10,390 bases of DNA from Phycisphaerales bacterium (GTDB taxonomy: Bacteria > Planctomycetota > Phycisphaerae > Phycisphaerales > UBA1924): contig JALSHW010000293.1 in assembly GCA_026982035.1 (NCBI GenBank), positions 1 through 10,390 on the forward strand. The letters run 5' to 3'. A model generated the notes under the pieces. The model searched no databases and was not told where the DNA came from. It saw nothing but the letters and a program-made list of their open reading frames with translations. The translations under genes and the position numbers were made by a program. Below are positions 177 to 9,299 of the stretch, in pieces. The first letter of the stretch is position 1, and each line of letters starts with the position of its first letter.

Positions 177-2021
177 ATGACCATGGATGCCTTCTGGCAC
201 TTTGCCAAACAGATGTTGCGATGGCGCGCCCACCTGATTTTCGGGCTGATCTTTGCCGCAATCTCCGCCGGAGGCATGGGCGCGGGCATCCTCGCCATGC
301 AACCGGTCCTTGACACCATCCTCGAACCCGGGCACCGCGGGCTCCCACAGTTGGCCCAGGAATACACCGCCCAAGGGTGGGCCTCGGGTATCTTCACCGA
401 TTCATTCATCGAATCGCTCCCCGAAGGCCCCTTTGACGCGATCCTCTGGATCATGATCTCGTTGGGCGTGCTCACAATCTTCGGGGCCTTTGGCAACTTC
501 ATGCACCAGTACCTGGCCCTGACGGTCGTCCAACGATCCATCGCCAGAATCCGCCGACAGGCCTTTGGACAAATCCTCCACCTCCCCCTCAAAACAATCG
601 TCTCCCAAGGCCCAACCGACACCATCTCCCGCATCGTCAATGACACCGAAGCACTCTCGGCCGGGTTCGTTTCGCTGCTCTCCAAAGCCGTCGCCCAGAT
701 CACCAAAGGTCTCATCGCCTTGATCGTTGCATTTTTGATCAACTGGCAACTGACACTGGTCGCACTCTTGTTGATGCCCATCCTTGCCATGGTCATCCGC
801 AAACTCGGCAAGCGTATCCGCCGGGCTTCTCAACGGGTCCTCTCAAGCCGGGCCGGGCTCTACCGGGCCGCCACCGAAGCCCTCCAAGGCATGCGCGTCG
901 TCAAAGTCCACACCACCGAACGCTACGAAGCCGGTCGATTCGGACGCATCAACAAAGAAGTCCTCCGACAACAACTCAAAATTCGCACCGCTCGCGCCAT
1001 CGCAGGCCCATTGATCGAACTGATCACCGTCTTCACCCTCGGTGCCTTGACACTGGTGGCCGTCAAACTCATCCTCGATGGACACCTCGACAAATCCGAG
1101 TTCATGACCGTACTGGTAGCCCTGGCAATCGCTGGAGCAAGCATCAAACCCATTTCAGGGCTCATCAACGACATCCAGCAATCCGGAGCAGCCGCCGACC
1201 GACTCAATCAACTCCTCAATGAAGACACCGAGCCAGGCCACGACATCCGAATACCCAAACTCGCTCGCCACCATGAATCACTCGTCTTTGATAATGTCTC
1301 GTTCATCTATCCAAGCGGTACCGCACGAGCCGTTTCCAACATCTCTCTGAGAATCAACGCCGGAGAAACCGTCGCCTTTGTGGGTCCAAACGGCTGTGGA
1401 AAAACCACACTGCTCTCACTGGTTCCCCGTCTCTTTGATCCAGACGAAGGCCGCGTACTCATCGACGGCACCGACATCACCCGCGTCCGGGTTCGTTCTC
1501 TTCGAAAACAAATCGGTGTCGTCACCCAAGAAGTCGTCCTCTTCAAAGGCACCATCGGCGACAACATCGCCTATGGAAACCCAAACGCCACAACCGAACA
1601 AATCATCCAAGCCGCCGAACAAGCCCGGGCACTCCAATTCATCAACGAACTCAACGAAGGATTCGAAACCCCCGTCGGTGAACAAGGCCTCACCCTCTCA
1701 GGCGGCCAACGCCAACGCGTCGCCATCGCCCGCGCCATCCTCCGCAACCCATCCATCCTCATCCTTGACGAAGCCACCTCAATGGTCGACGCCGCCTCTG
1801 AACGACTCATCGGCGATGTGCTCTCAACCTTCTGCACCAACCGAACAACCCTCATCGTCGCCCACCGACTCTCAACAGTCCTGGGCGCCGACCGAATCGT
1901 CGTCATGGACAAAGGCCAAATCGTCGCAACCGGAACCCACAACCAACTCCTCGAAACCTCCCCACTCTACAAATCCCTCGCCCAGCATCAACTCATCGAA
2001 CACACTGAAAACCAATCCTGA
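177..2021 (+). CDS. MsbA-like ABC exporter, fused permease and ATPase
   Basis: This is a half-transporter of 614 residues with permease and ATPase in one chain, the layout of type I (ABCB/MsbA) exporters that dimerise in the inner membrane and pump lipids, peptides or drugs outward. Hydrophobic segments lie near residues 19-42, 88-108, 171-189, 191-207, 277-300 and 310-330. The ATPase runs from about 368 to 602. It has an A-loop tyrosine (Y378), Walker A GPNGCGKTT (403-411, K409), Q-loop Q451, signature LSGGQ (507-511), Walker B SILILDE with D531 and catalytic E532, and H-loop H563, so it should be active. The loop between the first two helices (about 43-87) looks longer than in MsbA. AGGAA at 159-163 is a distant ribosome-binding site, and a second ATG at 183 is an alternative start. 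The substrate cannot be told from sequence; lipid A or lipid-linked export is only one possibility. Confidence 0.93.
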   Translation: MTMDAFWHFAKQMLRWRAHLIFGLIFAAISAGGMGAGILAMQPVLDTILEPGHRGLPQLAQEYTAQGWASGIFTDSFIESLPEGPFDAILWIMISLGVLTIFGAFGNFMHQYLALTVVQRSIARIRRQAFGQILHLPLKTIVSQGPTDTISRIVNDTEALSAGFVSLLSKAVAQITKGLIALIVAFLINWQLTLVALLLMPILAMVIRKLGKRIRRASQRVLSSRAGLYRAATEALQGMRVVKVHTTERYEAGRFGRINKEVLRQQLKIRTARAIAGPLIELITVFTLGALTLVAVKLILDGHLDKSEFMTVLVALAIAGASIKPISGLINDIQQSGAAADRLNQLLNEDTEPGHDIRIPKLARHHESLVFDNVSFIYPSGTARAVSNISLRINAGETVAFVGPNGCGKTTLLSLVPRLFDPDEGRVLIDGTDITRVRVRSLRKQIGVVTQEVVLFKGTIGDNIAYGNPNATTEQIIQAAEQARALQFINELNEGFETPVGEQGLTLSGGQRQRVAIARAILRNPSILILDEATSMVDAASERLIGDVLSTFCTNRTTLIVAHRLSTVLGADRIVVMDKGQIVATGTHNQLLETSPLYKSLAQHQLIEHTENQS

Positions 2022-2368
2022 TGCAACAAAAAGATGCCAACGAACACCTGGTTTTTGTCTGCGACTTCTGCCATCAACCCTGGGACGATTCGCGCCCAAT
2101 GGTCGAAGGCCATCGTGGATCACTCATCTGCGCCAACTGCCTCTCGATCGGATACACCGAAATTGTCCACCTCAAACTCGGTTCGCCCGTTGAGCGCGAA
2201 GACACCTGCCTGCTCTGCCTAGAACATGGCCGCGACGATCCACATTGGCGATCACCCATGTTCGACCAAGCCATCGCCTGCCGACGATGCCTCAAACAAT
2301 CCGCAGGTGTCCTCCACAAAGACCCCGACTACACCTGGCAAAAACCGCGTGATCCGTCCAAAGACTAA
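2021..2368 (+). CDS. Small protein with two tandem ClpX-like C4 zinc fingers
   Basis: This 115-residue soluble protein has four CxxC pairs. The first finger is C14-x2-C17 and C37-x2-C40 (19 residues between the pairs). The second is C63-x2-C66 and C87-x2-C90 (20 between). The first finger reads like the N-terminal zinc-binding domain of ClpX: CDFC, then a V-x-G-x-x-G-x-x-I-C spacing, then CANCL. No AAA+ ATPase follows, so it is not ClpX. The near-equal spacing suggests a duplicated treble-clef module. The start codon overlaps the stop of the exporter gene (TGATG, bases 2019-2023) and lacks a clear ribosome-binding site, so translation is probably coupled to the exporter. By family analogy such fingers bind proteins or dimerise. 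The function is unknown; a partner or regulator of the exporter is a guess from position. Confidence 0.82.
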   Translation: MQQKDANEHLVFVCDFCHQPWDDSRPMVEGHRGSLICANCLSIGYTEIVHLKLGSPVEREDTCLLCLEHGRDDPHWRSPMFDQAIACRRCLKQSAGVLHKDPDYTWQKPRDPSKD

Positions 2369-2398: not shown

Positions 2399-3307
2399 CT
2401 ATTCCGGACGCGTCTTCTTGTAAATATACTCGATGTCAGTAATCAAAATGTACGACCCGTCCGATTGATGCACCAACCCCTTAAGAAACTCTGAATTCTC
2501 CGTCGAATCTGGCAGTGCCTCAACTGAACCATCTGGACAATCAAACACTGAATGCACTTCGTCAACAATCAATCCAATCTTGTGGCCACCAAGTTCAGTA
2601 ATAATCATCATGCTCGTGTGAATTGGTCGAAGCGTCTCAACGAGCGACTTGAATAACTGCCGCATATGAGCAAGTTCTCCATCCCACACCGCATCGATCA
2701 AGTCCCTGGCTTTGTCGCATTCATTCTTGCTTACCAAAAGCATGACATCTTTGGCGATCGAATGGATCTTTTTGTGTGGCTCATCAAACTGATTAACAAT
2801 CGCACGAGCAGACGAACTTCCCTTGGTCAAACTTTCCAAAAGCGAGGTGTTGCCACAGAGATTGTTATACCATTTACCAAAAGAACATTTGGCGGGATCG
2901 GTTGATTTCGTAAATTGCTCACCCGTTTCAACACTCTCTTTGAGAGCAAGGAGCCACTGCACATGCTCCTCTTCTCGTTGCGCAAGCATTTCTTCAAGTT
3001 CTTGCACGCTGTCTGTGTGCGAAGTAAACCCGAACAATGCCCGCGTATCAATCGCTGGAATAATCGTTCCACGGTGATTGATCACTCCTTGCACATACGA
3101 GGGAGCATGTGACACACGCGTAATCTGGGTCATGGATGAATCCATGAGTTCGACGGTGGTATCCGTCGAAATCCCATACATATTCTTATTGATCTCCACG
3201 ACCACATACCGCGTCACATCCTCAGCCACCACCGAGTTCGATTCGGTACCCTCATCGATTTGGACCAATTCCTGTTCTTCTACGCTTGTGGTTGATAATT
3301 CTGTCAT
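2399..3307 (-). CDS. CheW-type chemotaxis adaptor with a nested CZB zinc-binding domain
   Basis: From the ATG at 3307 the product has 302 residues. Residues 31-96 form the first part of a CheW domain: the RYVVVEI strand, the VINHRGTIIPAIDTR motif with R79 and R89, then LFGF. Residues 232-299 form the rest: SMMIITELGGHKIGLIVDEV, then SYILITDIEYI. Between them lie about 130 residues carrying the CZB (chemoreceptor zinc-binding) signature: H115-x2-W118, C141-S-F-G-K-W146, and H178-x3-H182, a His3Cys zinc site. CheW domains couple chemoreceptors to CheA; CZB domains sense zinc or oxidants such as hypochlorite. No other chemotaxis gene is in view. In-frame ATGs at 3325 and 3340 would add 6 or 11 residues. 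3307 is preferred because GAGG lies just before it, although the full AGGAGG is unusually close. The gene is visibly less GC-rich than its neighbours. Confidence 0.85.
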   Translation of the reverse strand: MTELSTTSVEEQELVQIDEGTESNSVVAEDVTRYVVVEINKNMYGISTDTTVELMDSSMTQITRVSHAPSYVQGVINHRGTIIPAIDTRALFGFTSHTDSVQELEEMLAQREEEHVQWLLALKESVETGEQFTKSTDPAKCSFGKWYNNLCGNTSLLESLTKGSSSARAIVNQFDEPHKKIHSIAKDVMLLVSKNECDKARDLIDAVWDGELAHMRQLFKSLVETLRPIHTSMMIITELGGHKIGLIVDEVHSVFDCPDGSVEALPDSTENSEFLKGLVHQSDGSYILITDIEYIYKKTRPE

Positions 3308-3552
3308 ACCTCCTCTATCGGGCATGAAACGATGGCACATAACCCAAACGAATCAGACATCCACAGATTCCCGCCTCACCCCACCTTGAACCCAATTTTG
3401 TGCCCATTATCAAGACCTCATCAGCCCACCAAAACCCCACGACACGCCAAAACAGGGTATATCATCCCCCTTTGATCCGCCTTCCCTGATTTGTGGCCTC
3501 AAGCGAAACCTCCATCTCTCCGCCACATACAACCAGTTCAAGACCACCCATT
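3308..3552. other. Divergent intergenic region, no gene seen
   Basis: This stretch separates the leftward CheW-CZB gene from the rightward S41 peptidase and must hold both promoters. No convincing paired -35/-10 boxes could be identified. TATATC at about 3459-3464 is a possible -10 for the rightward gene but has no matching -35. Short frames crossing the region lack ribosome-binding sites and recognisable protein sequence. No tandem repeat or long hairpin was seen. Confidence 0.5.
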
Positions 3553-5100: not shown

Positions 5101-5943
5101 ATGAAATCCAACACACGCCACACCACACTTGCCATGTTGCTCGCCGCTGCGATGCCCATGATCTTGTCAACCCCTGCACTGGCTGGCCCAGGCCATGGCC
5201 ACAGCGAAGAAGTCGCCAAAACAACCGACGCTCCAACCATGGACGCCAAAGCCAAAGCCGTCTGGGACAAATCCATCAAAGCAAGCCTCAGCGAAAACGC
5301 CGAGGAAAGAGGGGTCAAAACCATGCGCCTCACCGGCACCATGTCCATGCCCGCCCAAGGCATCAACGCCACGATGAATATCTTCATCGCCAAAGATCAA
5401 GGCATGCGCCTGGACATGGAAATCCCAGGGATCGGCTCCTTTGAACAAGGCATCTCAGGCGATGTCGCATGGTCCAACAACATGATGGAAGGCCCGAAAA
5501 TCATCGAAGGCGATGAAGCCAAACAACTCTTCAAACAACTCGACCTCTACGCCGATCTCAATTGGGAAAAATACTACCAAAGCATCACTTTCAAAGGCCA
5601 AGAAACCATCACCCTCCCAGACGACACCGAAATGCAAACCAATGTCCTCGAACTCGTCTCCATCGACAACGGCACCGTCTCCACCCAATACTACAACGCC
5701 GACACCGGACTCCTCGCCAAAGCCGTCTCAACCGTCGCCATCCCAGGAGGCGGAGAAATGCCATCAACGGCCTACACCACAAAATATCGTGAAATCGAAG
5801 GCCTTATGATCCCCTTCAAAACCGTCTCCTCTTCCGGACCCATGAAGCAAATCATCGAGTTCTCCGAAGTCCTCGTCAACGACGAAATCAAAGACGGCGA
5901 ACTCGACCTCCCAGAAGACATCAAAGAACTCCTCGAAGACTGA
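5101..5943 (+). CDS. Exported LolA-like (outer-membrane lipoprotein-sorting fold) protein
   Basis: This 280-residue protein begins with a clear Sec signal peptide (MKSNTRHTTL, then a hydrophobic core) with a likely cleavage after ALA28. The mature part opens with a His-rich GHGHS and an Ala/Lys helix (about 48-62). Then come many amphipathic strands typical of LolA/LolB-like half-barrels: MRLTGTMSMPA (75-85), MRLDMEIPG (102-110), SGDVAWS (119-125), NADTGLL (199-205) and a closing VLVNDEIKDGELDLPED. This fold binds lipids or acyl chains in the periplasm in its known members, but many distant members are uncharacterised, so lipoprotein transport is not claimed. It has no lipobox and should be soluble in the periplasm. 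It follows the S41 peptidase in the same direction and is closed by the terminator at 5970-5998, so the two probably form one unit. Confidence 0.72.
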   Translation: MKSNTRHTTLAMLLAAAMPMILSTPALAGPGHGHSEEVAKTTDAPTMDAKAKAVWDKSIKASLSENAEERGVKTMRLTGTMSMPAQGINATMNIFIAKDQGMRLDMEIPGIGSFEQGISGDVAWSNNMMEGPKIIEGDEAKQLFKQLDLYADLNWEKYYQSITFKGQETITLPDDTEMQTNVLELVSIDNGTVSTQYYNADTGLLAKAVSTVAIPGGGEMPSTAYTTKYREIEGLMIPFKTVSSSGPMKQIIEFSEVLVNDEIKDGELDLPEDIKELLED

Positions 5944-7520: not shown

Positions 7521-9299
7521 ATGAACCCACTCCACACCACCATCGCCAAAGCCACCAAGCGACTGATCCTCATTGATTCACTCCGCACCATCACCATCTG
7601 CCTGGCCGCGGCTCTTGCCCTCATGGTCTTTGCCCGCGCCACCCAGAAAGTCGCCCCGGTCTTCGAGATTCCTTGGCCCATCGTCTTCATCGCCGCCCCG
7701 ATCACCGCCATCGTCGCCGGTCTCATCTGGGCATTGATCCGCAGGCCATCCAAAATCAAAGCCGCCCAGATCATCGACGAACACGCCGACCTCCGCGAAT
7801 CAATCTCCACCGCCCTCATCGTCGAATCCCAATCCGACGGCTGGTCCAAAGCCATCCTCACCGACGCCAACAACAAGGCCTCAAAGATCAACCTCAAAAC
7901 CGCCCTCCCCCTCACCGCCCCAAAGTTCTGGCCAGCCCCCATCACCGCCGGGCTCGCGCTCTTGGCCGTCTGGTGGCTCCCCGTCAAAGACCTCACCGGA
8001 CTCTACGCCAAACAGCAAGAACACCAAGCCGAGCAACTCCAAGTCCAACAAATCGAATCCACCGTCCAAGAATCTCAAAAAGCCCTCAAAGAAATCCTCG
8101 AAAAAACCAATCTCGACTTCGCCGACGATGACAACATCTTCGAAGACCTCCTCAACCCCGAATCCAACGAATACCTCACCCCCGAAGAATCCCTCCGCAG
8201 CGCGATCAAGAACCTCACCAGCGTCGCCGACAAACTTGAAGAAAAACGCAACAACGAAGACGGCGCCACCTTCGACGCCATCAAAGACGCCATGAAATCC
8301 CTCAACACCGCCGAAGAATCCCCGGCTTCAGAAATGGCCCGCGCCATGGCCCGTGGCGACTTCAAAGAAGCCAAAGAACAACTCGAGCAACTCGCCGAGC
8401 AAATGGAATCAGGCGACCTCTCCGAATCAGACAAAAAGAAACTCGGCGATCAACTCGACAACATGAAAAAACAAATGGAGCAAATGTCCAAAAACTCCCA
8501 AGAACTCGAAGAACAACTCAAAGCCGCAGGCCTCAGCGAACAACAAGCCAAACAACTCGCCTCCGATCCAAACGCTCTCAAAAAAGCACTCGAAGACGCA
8601 GGCGTCACCCCAGAACAAATCGAATCCCTCGCCAAAGCCGCCCAAGCCCAACAAAAATCCTCCGACGCCGCCGCCGCCATGTCCCAAGCCATGGGACAAA
8701 TGGCCCAAGGCATGCAAAGCGGCAACCCCCAACAAGCCGCCGCCGGCTCCGACGCCATGAACGCCCAACTCTCCGACCTCGAAAACATGCAACAAGAAGC
8801 CAACTCGCTCGAATCGGCCATGAACCAAGCACAACAACAACTCAACGAACTCTCCCAATGCTCCGGCGGCGGCTCCAACCCAGGCGGAGGCCAACAAGCC
8901 CAATGGGCATCATCGGGACAATTTGCAGAAGGAAACTCACAAGGATTAGGTTCAGGATCAGGAGGCCCCGGTCAAGGCCTGGGCGCAGGACCACAAGAAC
9001 AAGGCGCCGACTTCACCATCAACAAAGAACACGCCTCAGTCCGCACAACCTCAGAAGGCCCCGTCATCGCCTCGACCATGGTCAACGGCTCGCAAATCAT
9101 CGGCGAATCCACCGCCGTCTTCTCCGACGCCGTCACCAACGCCAAAACACAGGCCTCCGAAGCCATCGAAACCAAACGCATCCCCCGTCAATACGAATCC
9201 GCCGTCCAAAGCTACTTCGGACGCCTCGACAAAGCCGCCAAAGAAGCAAAATCTGAGGCCAAGCCCACCCCAGAGCCCGCCGAAACCAAGGACGACTAA
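7521..9299 (+). CDS. DUF4175-like membrane-anchored coiled-coil protein
   Basis: This 592-residue protein has three N-terminal hydrophobic segments (about 23-38, 52-73 and 138-153). Between the second and third is a conserved-looking stretch (IKAAQIIDEHADLRESISTA, 79-98) typical of the DUF4175/TIGR02302-type proteins found near MoxR-DUF58-VWA clusters in planctomycetes and proteobacteria. Residues about 160-445 are highly charged and rich in Gln, Glu, Lys and Met, predicted long coiled coil (runs such as KEAKEQLEQLAEQM). A Gly/Ser/Gln-rich linker follows (448-496). The C-terminal domain (about 497-570) ends with RIPRQYESAVQSYFGRL, resembling the conserved tail of this group. It should be an inner-membrane protein with a large coiled-coil domain on one side. 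The biochemical role is unknown, and the usual MoxR/VWA partners are not in view. Internal Gln-rich codon runs are low-complexity, not true DNA repeats. Confidence 0.72.
   Translation: MNPLHTTIAKATKRLILIDSLRTITICLAAALALMVFARATQKVAPVFEIPWPIVFIAAPITAIVAGLIWALIRRPSKIKAAQIIDEHADLRESISTALIVESQSDGWSKAILTDANNKASKINLKTALPLTAPKFWPAPITAGLALLAVWWLPVKDLTGLYAKQQEHQAEQLQVQQIESTVQESQKALKEILEKTNLDFADDDNIFEDLLNPESNEYLTPEESLRSAIKNLTSVADKLEEKRNNEDGATFDAIKDAMKSLNTAEESPASEMARAMARGDFKEAKEQLEQLAEQMESGDLSESDKKKLGDQLDNMKKQMEQMSKNSQELEEQLKAAGLSEQQAKQLASDPNALKKALEDAGVTPEQIESLAKAAQAQQKSSDAAAAMSQAMGQMAQGMQSGNPQQAAAGSDAMNAQLSDLENMQQEANSLESAMNQAQQQLNELSQCSGGGSNPGGGQQAQWASSGQFAEGNSQGLGSGSGGPGQGLGAGPQEQGADFTINKEHASVRTTSEGPVIASTMVNGSQIIGESTAVFSDAVTNAKTQASEAIETKRIPRQYESAVQSYFGRLDKAAKEAKSEAKPTPEPAETKDD

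Follow-up and report, generated by a model that had tools for sequence, protein, structure and literature searches.

CheW tends to be regarded as a passive link, and with a sensor inside its fold it can be asked directly whether the array might be gated by an adaptor while the receptors stay unchanged. Proteins that unite CheW with the zinc-sensing CZB domain were named CheW-CZB in 2021, as one of seven CZB subgroups comprising 1.4% of 10,140 CZB sequences, and the text of the same study describes how cysteine oxidation is followed by zinc release, with transmission to the helices at the N- and C-terminus (PMC8262984). In 2023, a further study treated CheW-CZB as already identified, introduced CheWS as the first characterised CheW-fused sensor, and proposed that CheW-fused domains, among them CZB, serve in chemotactic sensing and that this may be widespread (PMC10653840). 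The present analysis concerns a CheW-CZB gene in a stretch of 10,390 nucleotides from a Phycisphaerales bacterium (assembly GCA_026982035.1, contig JALSHW010000293.1), which is called the window in the following. The protein class is real and widespread, it had already been named, and the window protein belongs to it. What is added here are the insertion site, the recurrence across phyla, the probable place as a second adaptor and the existence of close relatives without CZB.

No text was found that states the nesting of CZB in CheW, which may be drawn in figures or supplements. In the main text of PMC8262984 the words "nested" and "inserted" and the string "Planctomyc" occur 0 times, with Figure 6A and Data Set S1 lying outside this count, and excerpts of PMC7154110, PMC9321776 and PMC6194562 added nothing on CheW-CZB. 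An initial annotation of the window had stated that CZB domains usually sit at the ends of receptors and cyclases and that CheW is normally a bare adaptor. This background was incomplete, because the CheW-CZB class (PMC8262984) and the proposal of CheW-fused sensing (PMC10653840) were already in print.

One CheW fold interrupted by a CZB domain

The CheW-CZB gene is located on the minus strand at 2399..3340 and comprises an open reading frame of 313 amino acids, or of 302 amino acids with a start at 3307 (ATG 3305-3307); the latter version is used for residue numbering throughout. The N-terminal CheW half (residues 32-94, 3026..3214, defined by Pfam CheW profile positions 2-65 and the strands of the model) has IDTRALFGF at its end, it is followed by the insert (residues 95-231, 2615..3025), and the C-terminal half (residues 232-299, 2411..2614, profile positions 64-134) starts with SMMIITELGG, all on the minus strand. 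Within the insert, the CZB fold spans residues 100-228 (2624-3010, minus strand), and the Pfam CZB match of the profile search covers 2741-2965 on the same strand. Profile searches of the genome revealed a near-complete but interrupted CheW, with positions 2-65 of the 138 profile positions at 3011-3208 and positions 64-134 at 2420-2629. In the Pfam analysis of the protein both domains were found within the one reading frame: PF01584 (CheW) reached 90 bits in two stretches (curated cut-off 23.5), and these flanked the whole match to PF13682 (CZB), which reached 43.1 bits over positions 1-64 of 64 (curated cut-off 29.4).

In the AlphaFold model (pLDDT 91.8) the two halves close into one whole CheW fold, and 140/140 residues of 2ch4_Y were aligned in a structural alignment. 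The CZB fold of the insert was supported by a structural match, and in a second look at the fold search the DgcZ CZB (PDB 3t9o, 4h54) was the best solved helical match. The outer helices of the bundle (residues 97-128 and 197-229) continue directly into the CheW fold of the model at a single loop, the counterpart of E. coli CheW residues 77-85 in an alignment with 2ho9 that was read by eye. Pfam, model and structural alignment were concordant, and the window protein is a complete CheW fold split by CZB, as had been claimed in the initial annotation for a CheW interrupted after IDTRALFGF by about 130 residues. The nesting matters for the modelling or truncating of CheW-CZB proteins, as the removal of CZB at one end would break CheW.

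The full CZB ligand set was also present, with H115, C141, H178 and H182 exactly where they had been annotated, so that the His3-Cys set and the CxFGxW motif are complete in the window protein. The codons of these predicted zinc ligands are found on the minus strand at 2963..2965 (H115, in HVQW), 2885..2887 (C141, in CSFGKW), 2774..2776 (H178) and 2762..2764 (H182), and the respective residues are conserved in 128, 132, 133 and 127 of 136 aligned proteins. All four are intact in 125/136 relatives. The residue after the ligand cysteine is Ala in 78/136 aligned proteins and Ser in the window protein. In three further proteins, L096 (G122), P0091 and P0094, CheW is likewise interrupted at the position of CZB by about 130 residues, with most or all of the zinc ligands missing from this insert.

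A probable second adaptor beside a separate CheW

CheA, receptors and a full-length CheW match in a separate frame were found in 23/23 carrier genomes, the sample consisting of carriers only, and CheW-CZB is probably a second adaptor alongside this separate CheW. In the window's own genome, which is 56% complete, C11 contains a CheW together with the first part of a CheA dimerisation domain, C117 contains a CheW-bearing frame, and three receptor matches and one CZB were detected. By reading of the sequences, the neighbours on C11 are probably cheB and cheR, and the C117 frame is probably the end of CheA.

The window protein is proposed to be an accessory array adaptor, the coupling of which would be tuned by cytoplasmic zinc or oxidant; the probability of this reading is estimated to be about 0.6. 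The CheW fold, which was recognised by profile and model, would occupy a CheW position in the array of CheA, CheW and receptors, next to the canonical CheW that is encoded elsewhere, and the nested bundle would bind one zinc via the four ligands seen in the insert. Were zinc lost or C141 oxidised, the bundle would become looser. Because both outer helices enter the CheW fold at one loop of the model, the state of the bundle would change the receptor-CheA coupling by that CheW, and the zinc or oxidant status would tune swimming. Sensing of zinc or oxidant by the adaptor itself had been suggested in the initial annotation; it appears reasonable and is an idea already in print. The further suggestion that a dedicated receptor would not be needed was weakened: because CheA, another CheW and receptors are present in all 23 carriers, CheW-CZB more likely modulates the receptor array than replaces a receptor.

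A structural rather than a signalling role of zinc has to be considered as well. W118 and W146 are invariant in 136/136 rows, including those that have lost ligands, the DgcZ CZB is described as a homodimer, and the conserved alpha-1 region contributes much of the CZB homodimer interface according to the text of PMC8262984. These observations would fit a mechanical staple, in which the nested CZB pairs two CheW units and alters the packing or stability of the array. However, the insert was found to diverge two to three times as fast as the CheW halves in three groups with intact ligands, unlike what a tight shared contact would suggest, and the retention of all four ligands in 125/136 proteins would be expected of a zinc role, a structural one included. 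Such a stapling function is regarded as unlikely.

Several observations weigh against the proposed tuning of an array adaptor. At least one ligand is gone in 11/136 relatives, in which the bundle is retained, and CZB is absent in 12 close relatives, so sensing would be dispensable in this lineage. No che gene was recognised nearby in 22/26 loci by BLAST with the che proteins of the window's own genome, a search of limited reach. In E. coli CheW, R40 and D107 are described as receptor contacts and E27, R117 and F122 as bearing on interface 2 (excerpts of PMC6954272 and PMC5181776), and in an alignment read by eye R40, D107, E27, R117 and F122 correspond to M, S, N, E and S in the window protein. 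As none of these five residues is conserved, the E. coli array contacts were rejected as support for docking, and a docking mode like that of E. coli lacks support at the level of individual residues. This mismatch may be a lineage matter, because TtCheW (2qdl) likewise has E at the place of R117.

The unconserved contact residues and the orphan position of the gene in most loci seen are also what would be expected if the CheW fold docked elsewhere, in a separate receptor assembly or on a different kinase, and CZB reported there. This is considered highly improbable, as CheA and receptors co-occur in the 23 carrier genomes and a plain CheW gene is situated directly upstream of CheW-CZB in two loci, L009 and L010, both from Sedimentibacter, the latter with the homologue of Sedimentibacter saalensis DSM 13558 at L010:5666-6508. 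Exceptions among the 26 loci were also L008, with receptors, and L030, with a CheY-like match in a long frame. A sigma-28-like promoter upstream of CheW-CZB was rejected, as a search that tolerated as many as four mismatches to the consensus gave nothing better than weak matches.

Recurrence across bacteria and probable loss of the sensor

Two protein searches yielded 222 distinct proteins, 103 listed in one search and the best 120 of 2154 in the other; both queries were nested proteins, and own profiles for the CheW halves and CZB were built from them. CZB was detected in 204/222 proteins, and in 203 of these 204 the CZB was flanked by a CheW half on either side, the sole exception being the fragment P0100. 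Among the 80 loci retained of 513 confirmed in a scan of genome contigs, 19 genes in 18 loci were fully nested by the same profiles, six had one CheW half, and 14 had none, 12 of the latter in frames of 476-804 amino acids. Pfam covered six of these incompletely detected genes, with two CheW stretches in five of them and one stretch in the sixth, from the planctomycete Poly30. For the five genes the Pfam table gives the better stretch, on one side of CZB, and reading by eye revealed both halves flanking CZB in four of them.

Fully nested genes occur in Bdellovibrionales, Terriglobia, Sedimentibacter, Desulfobacteraceae, Magnetococcales, Anaerotignum, Ruminococcus and Phycisphaerales, among others, and nesting by Pfam and eye was seen in Enterovibrio, an Alteromonadaceae bacterium and a Myxococcota bacterium, among others. 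An occurrence confined to planctomycetes was ruled out by the nested CheW-CZB proteins of other phyla. The same insertion loop is used in the sampled proteins of Clostridia, Proteobacteria, Terriglobia, Planctomycetota and others, which were mostly found with nested queries, and six sampled genes from Clostridia were nested where both halves were visible. On one Magnetococcales contig (L014:7806-9686) two nested CheW-CZB genes are directly adjacent.

A search for the CZB family alone covered 16 genomes, all chosen as carriers of nested genes, and 392 Planctomycetota genomes, 38 of which had a CZB. It gave 80 matches, one of them the window's own; of the 79 others, 59 were examined as loci, and 52 of these 59 gave a CZB frame by the own profiles. 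In the 52 frames CZB was found beside a receptor signalling domain, in CheW, or with neither, and no whole CheW with CZB attached at its end was seen among them. The examined loci from Planctomycetota numbered 29 besides the window's own: 21 with a receptor signalling domain, two with neither, five without a frame by the own profile, and L183, in which one CheW half precedes CZB by profile and the second follows it by eye. Two or three consecutive CZB matches near the N-terminus of long proteins were present in L033, L034, L039, L052, L067 and L081, and likewise in L152, L177, L180 and L196, there with a receptor signalling domain behind.

Within the window's order, 18 of 151 genomes matched the family alignment at an E-value of 1e-20 or better. 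Seven matched over nearly the whole profile: all four sampled genomes of the window's genus, including its own, two of g21 and one of g27. The remaining 11 matched the first CheW half only and represent CheWs without the insert. In 12 close relatives without CZB, 5 to 23 residues are found in its place. In a tree built from the CheW halves alone (49 rows, 137 columns, 11 outgroup rows) the CZB-less forms are placed at four positions within the CZB-bearing group, several of which are not resolved; bootstrap trees require 4-5 changes (5-95%), two changes are forced by well-supported branches, and a single clade of CZB-less forms was rejected (AU p 3.3e-5). Loss is the simpler reading, because CZB is present in 11/11 outgroup rows. 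The absence of CZB at four places is thus best read as repeated loss, although the tree alone cannot separate gain from loss. The predicted zinc site has been lost repeatedly, both with and without loss of the domain. P0023 and P0093 are near-identical up to the junction and differ by CZB; their longest contigs differ in length by exactly 26,000 bases. They may be orthologues from two genomes or else two copies within versions of a single genome, and such natural pairs with and without the sensor are ready-made comparisons. The best matches of the CZB-less P0081, which has a linker of the 5-residue type, in 120 genomes of the family were paired part-matches in single longer frames, as would be expected of a nested gene, or else CheWs of 29-34% identity.

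Two groups poor in ligands had insert-to-CheW divergence ratios of 5.8 and 2.4, so no speed-up of the insert after ligand loss was established. The comparison of 14 ligand-poor rows with their nearest intact relative was likewise not clear: the ratio was 3.5-5.4 in six, 38 in one and 1.1-3.1 in seven, values that are inflated because the partner was chosen by CheW identity. The CZB-less forms at four places, the degenerate ligand sets and the fast divergence of the insert would all suit a plain CheW with a decorative, decaying insert of little or no effect on coupling. This explanation is quite unlikely, as the same nesting and mostly intact ligands across many phyla indicate long-term selection for a working CZB. 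Tentatively, the CheW fold may be viewed as a hub, one loop of which takes a sensor cassette that is held at both ends and signals by pulling on the adaptor; lineages would turn sensing on or off by dropping the cassette or its ligands and the adaptor would stay in the array, the cassette having been lost at least two, probably four times in this planctomycete family. The observations worth keeping are nesting in every sampled CheW-CZB with both halves visible, the common loop, and close relatives that repeatedly lack the cassette.

Next to CheW-CZB, and not part of the system, the window encodes an ABC transporter with transmembrane and ATPase regions (177..2021, plus strand) and a protein of 115 amino acids with a ClpX-type C4 zinc-finger match (2021..2368, plus strand). 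The latter is oriented tail to tail with CheW-CZB and has been kept beside it in several relatives. The order ABC transporter, small zinc-finger protein, CheW-CZB, S41 peptidase is conserved in L022 and L109 and partly in L017, L020, L021, L023, L108 and L112. A chimera, frameshift or assembly artefact was ruled out by the frame, which is open throughout, by the recurring order of the parts in the 203 proteins and by the synteny kept in relatives. The proteins encoded at 7521-9299 and 5101-5943 (both plus strand) are conserved in relatives and had no Pfam match at an E-value of 0.001.

Comparison with known systems

The window protein shares with the published CheW-CZB subgroup the presence of CheW and CZB in one protein and a residue other than Arg after the cysteine, where most receptors have Arg; the CZB of the window protein is nested, and no statement of nesting was found in the published text (PMC8262984). 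CheWS of Treponema denticola is likewise an adaptor with its own sensor and was proposed to feed the intracellular state to the array, but its sensor is a C-terminal CheR-like SAM-binding domain and not a nested CZB (excerpts of PMC10653840). The CZB of DgcZ (3t9o, 4h54) has a helical fold that matches the insert and the same 3His/1Cys ligands (text of PMC8262984); it is the N-terminal regulator of a diguanylate cyclase, whereas the CZB of the window protein is anchored at both ends in another domain. Compared with canonical CheW (2ch4, 2qdl, 8c5v), the window protein contains the whole CheW fold and differs in having a CZB of about 130 residues in one loop.
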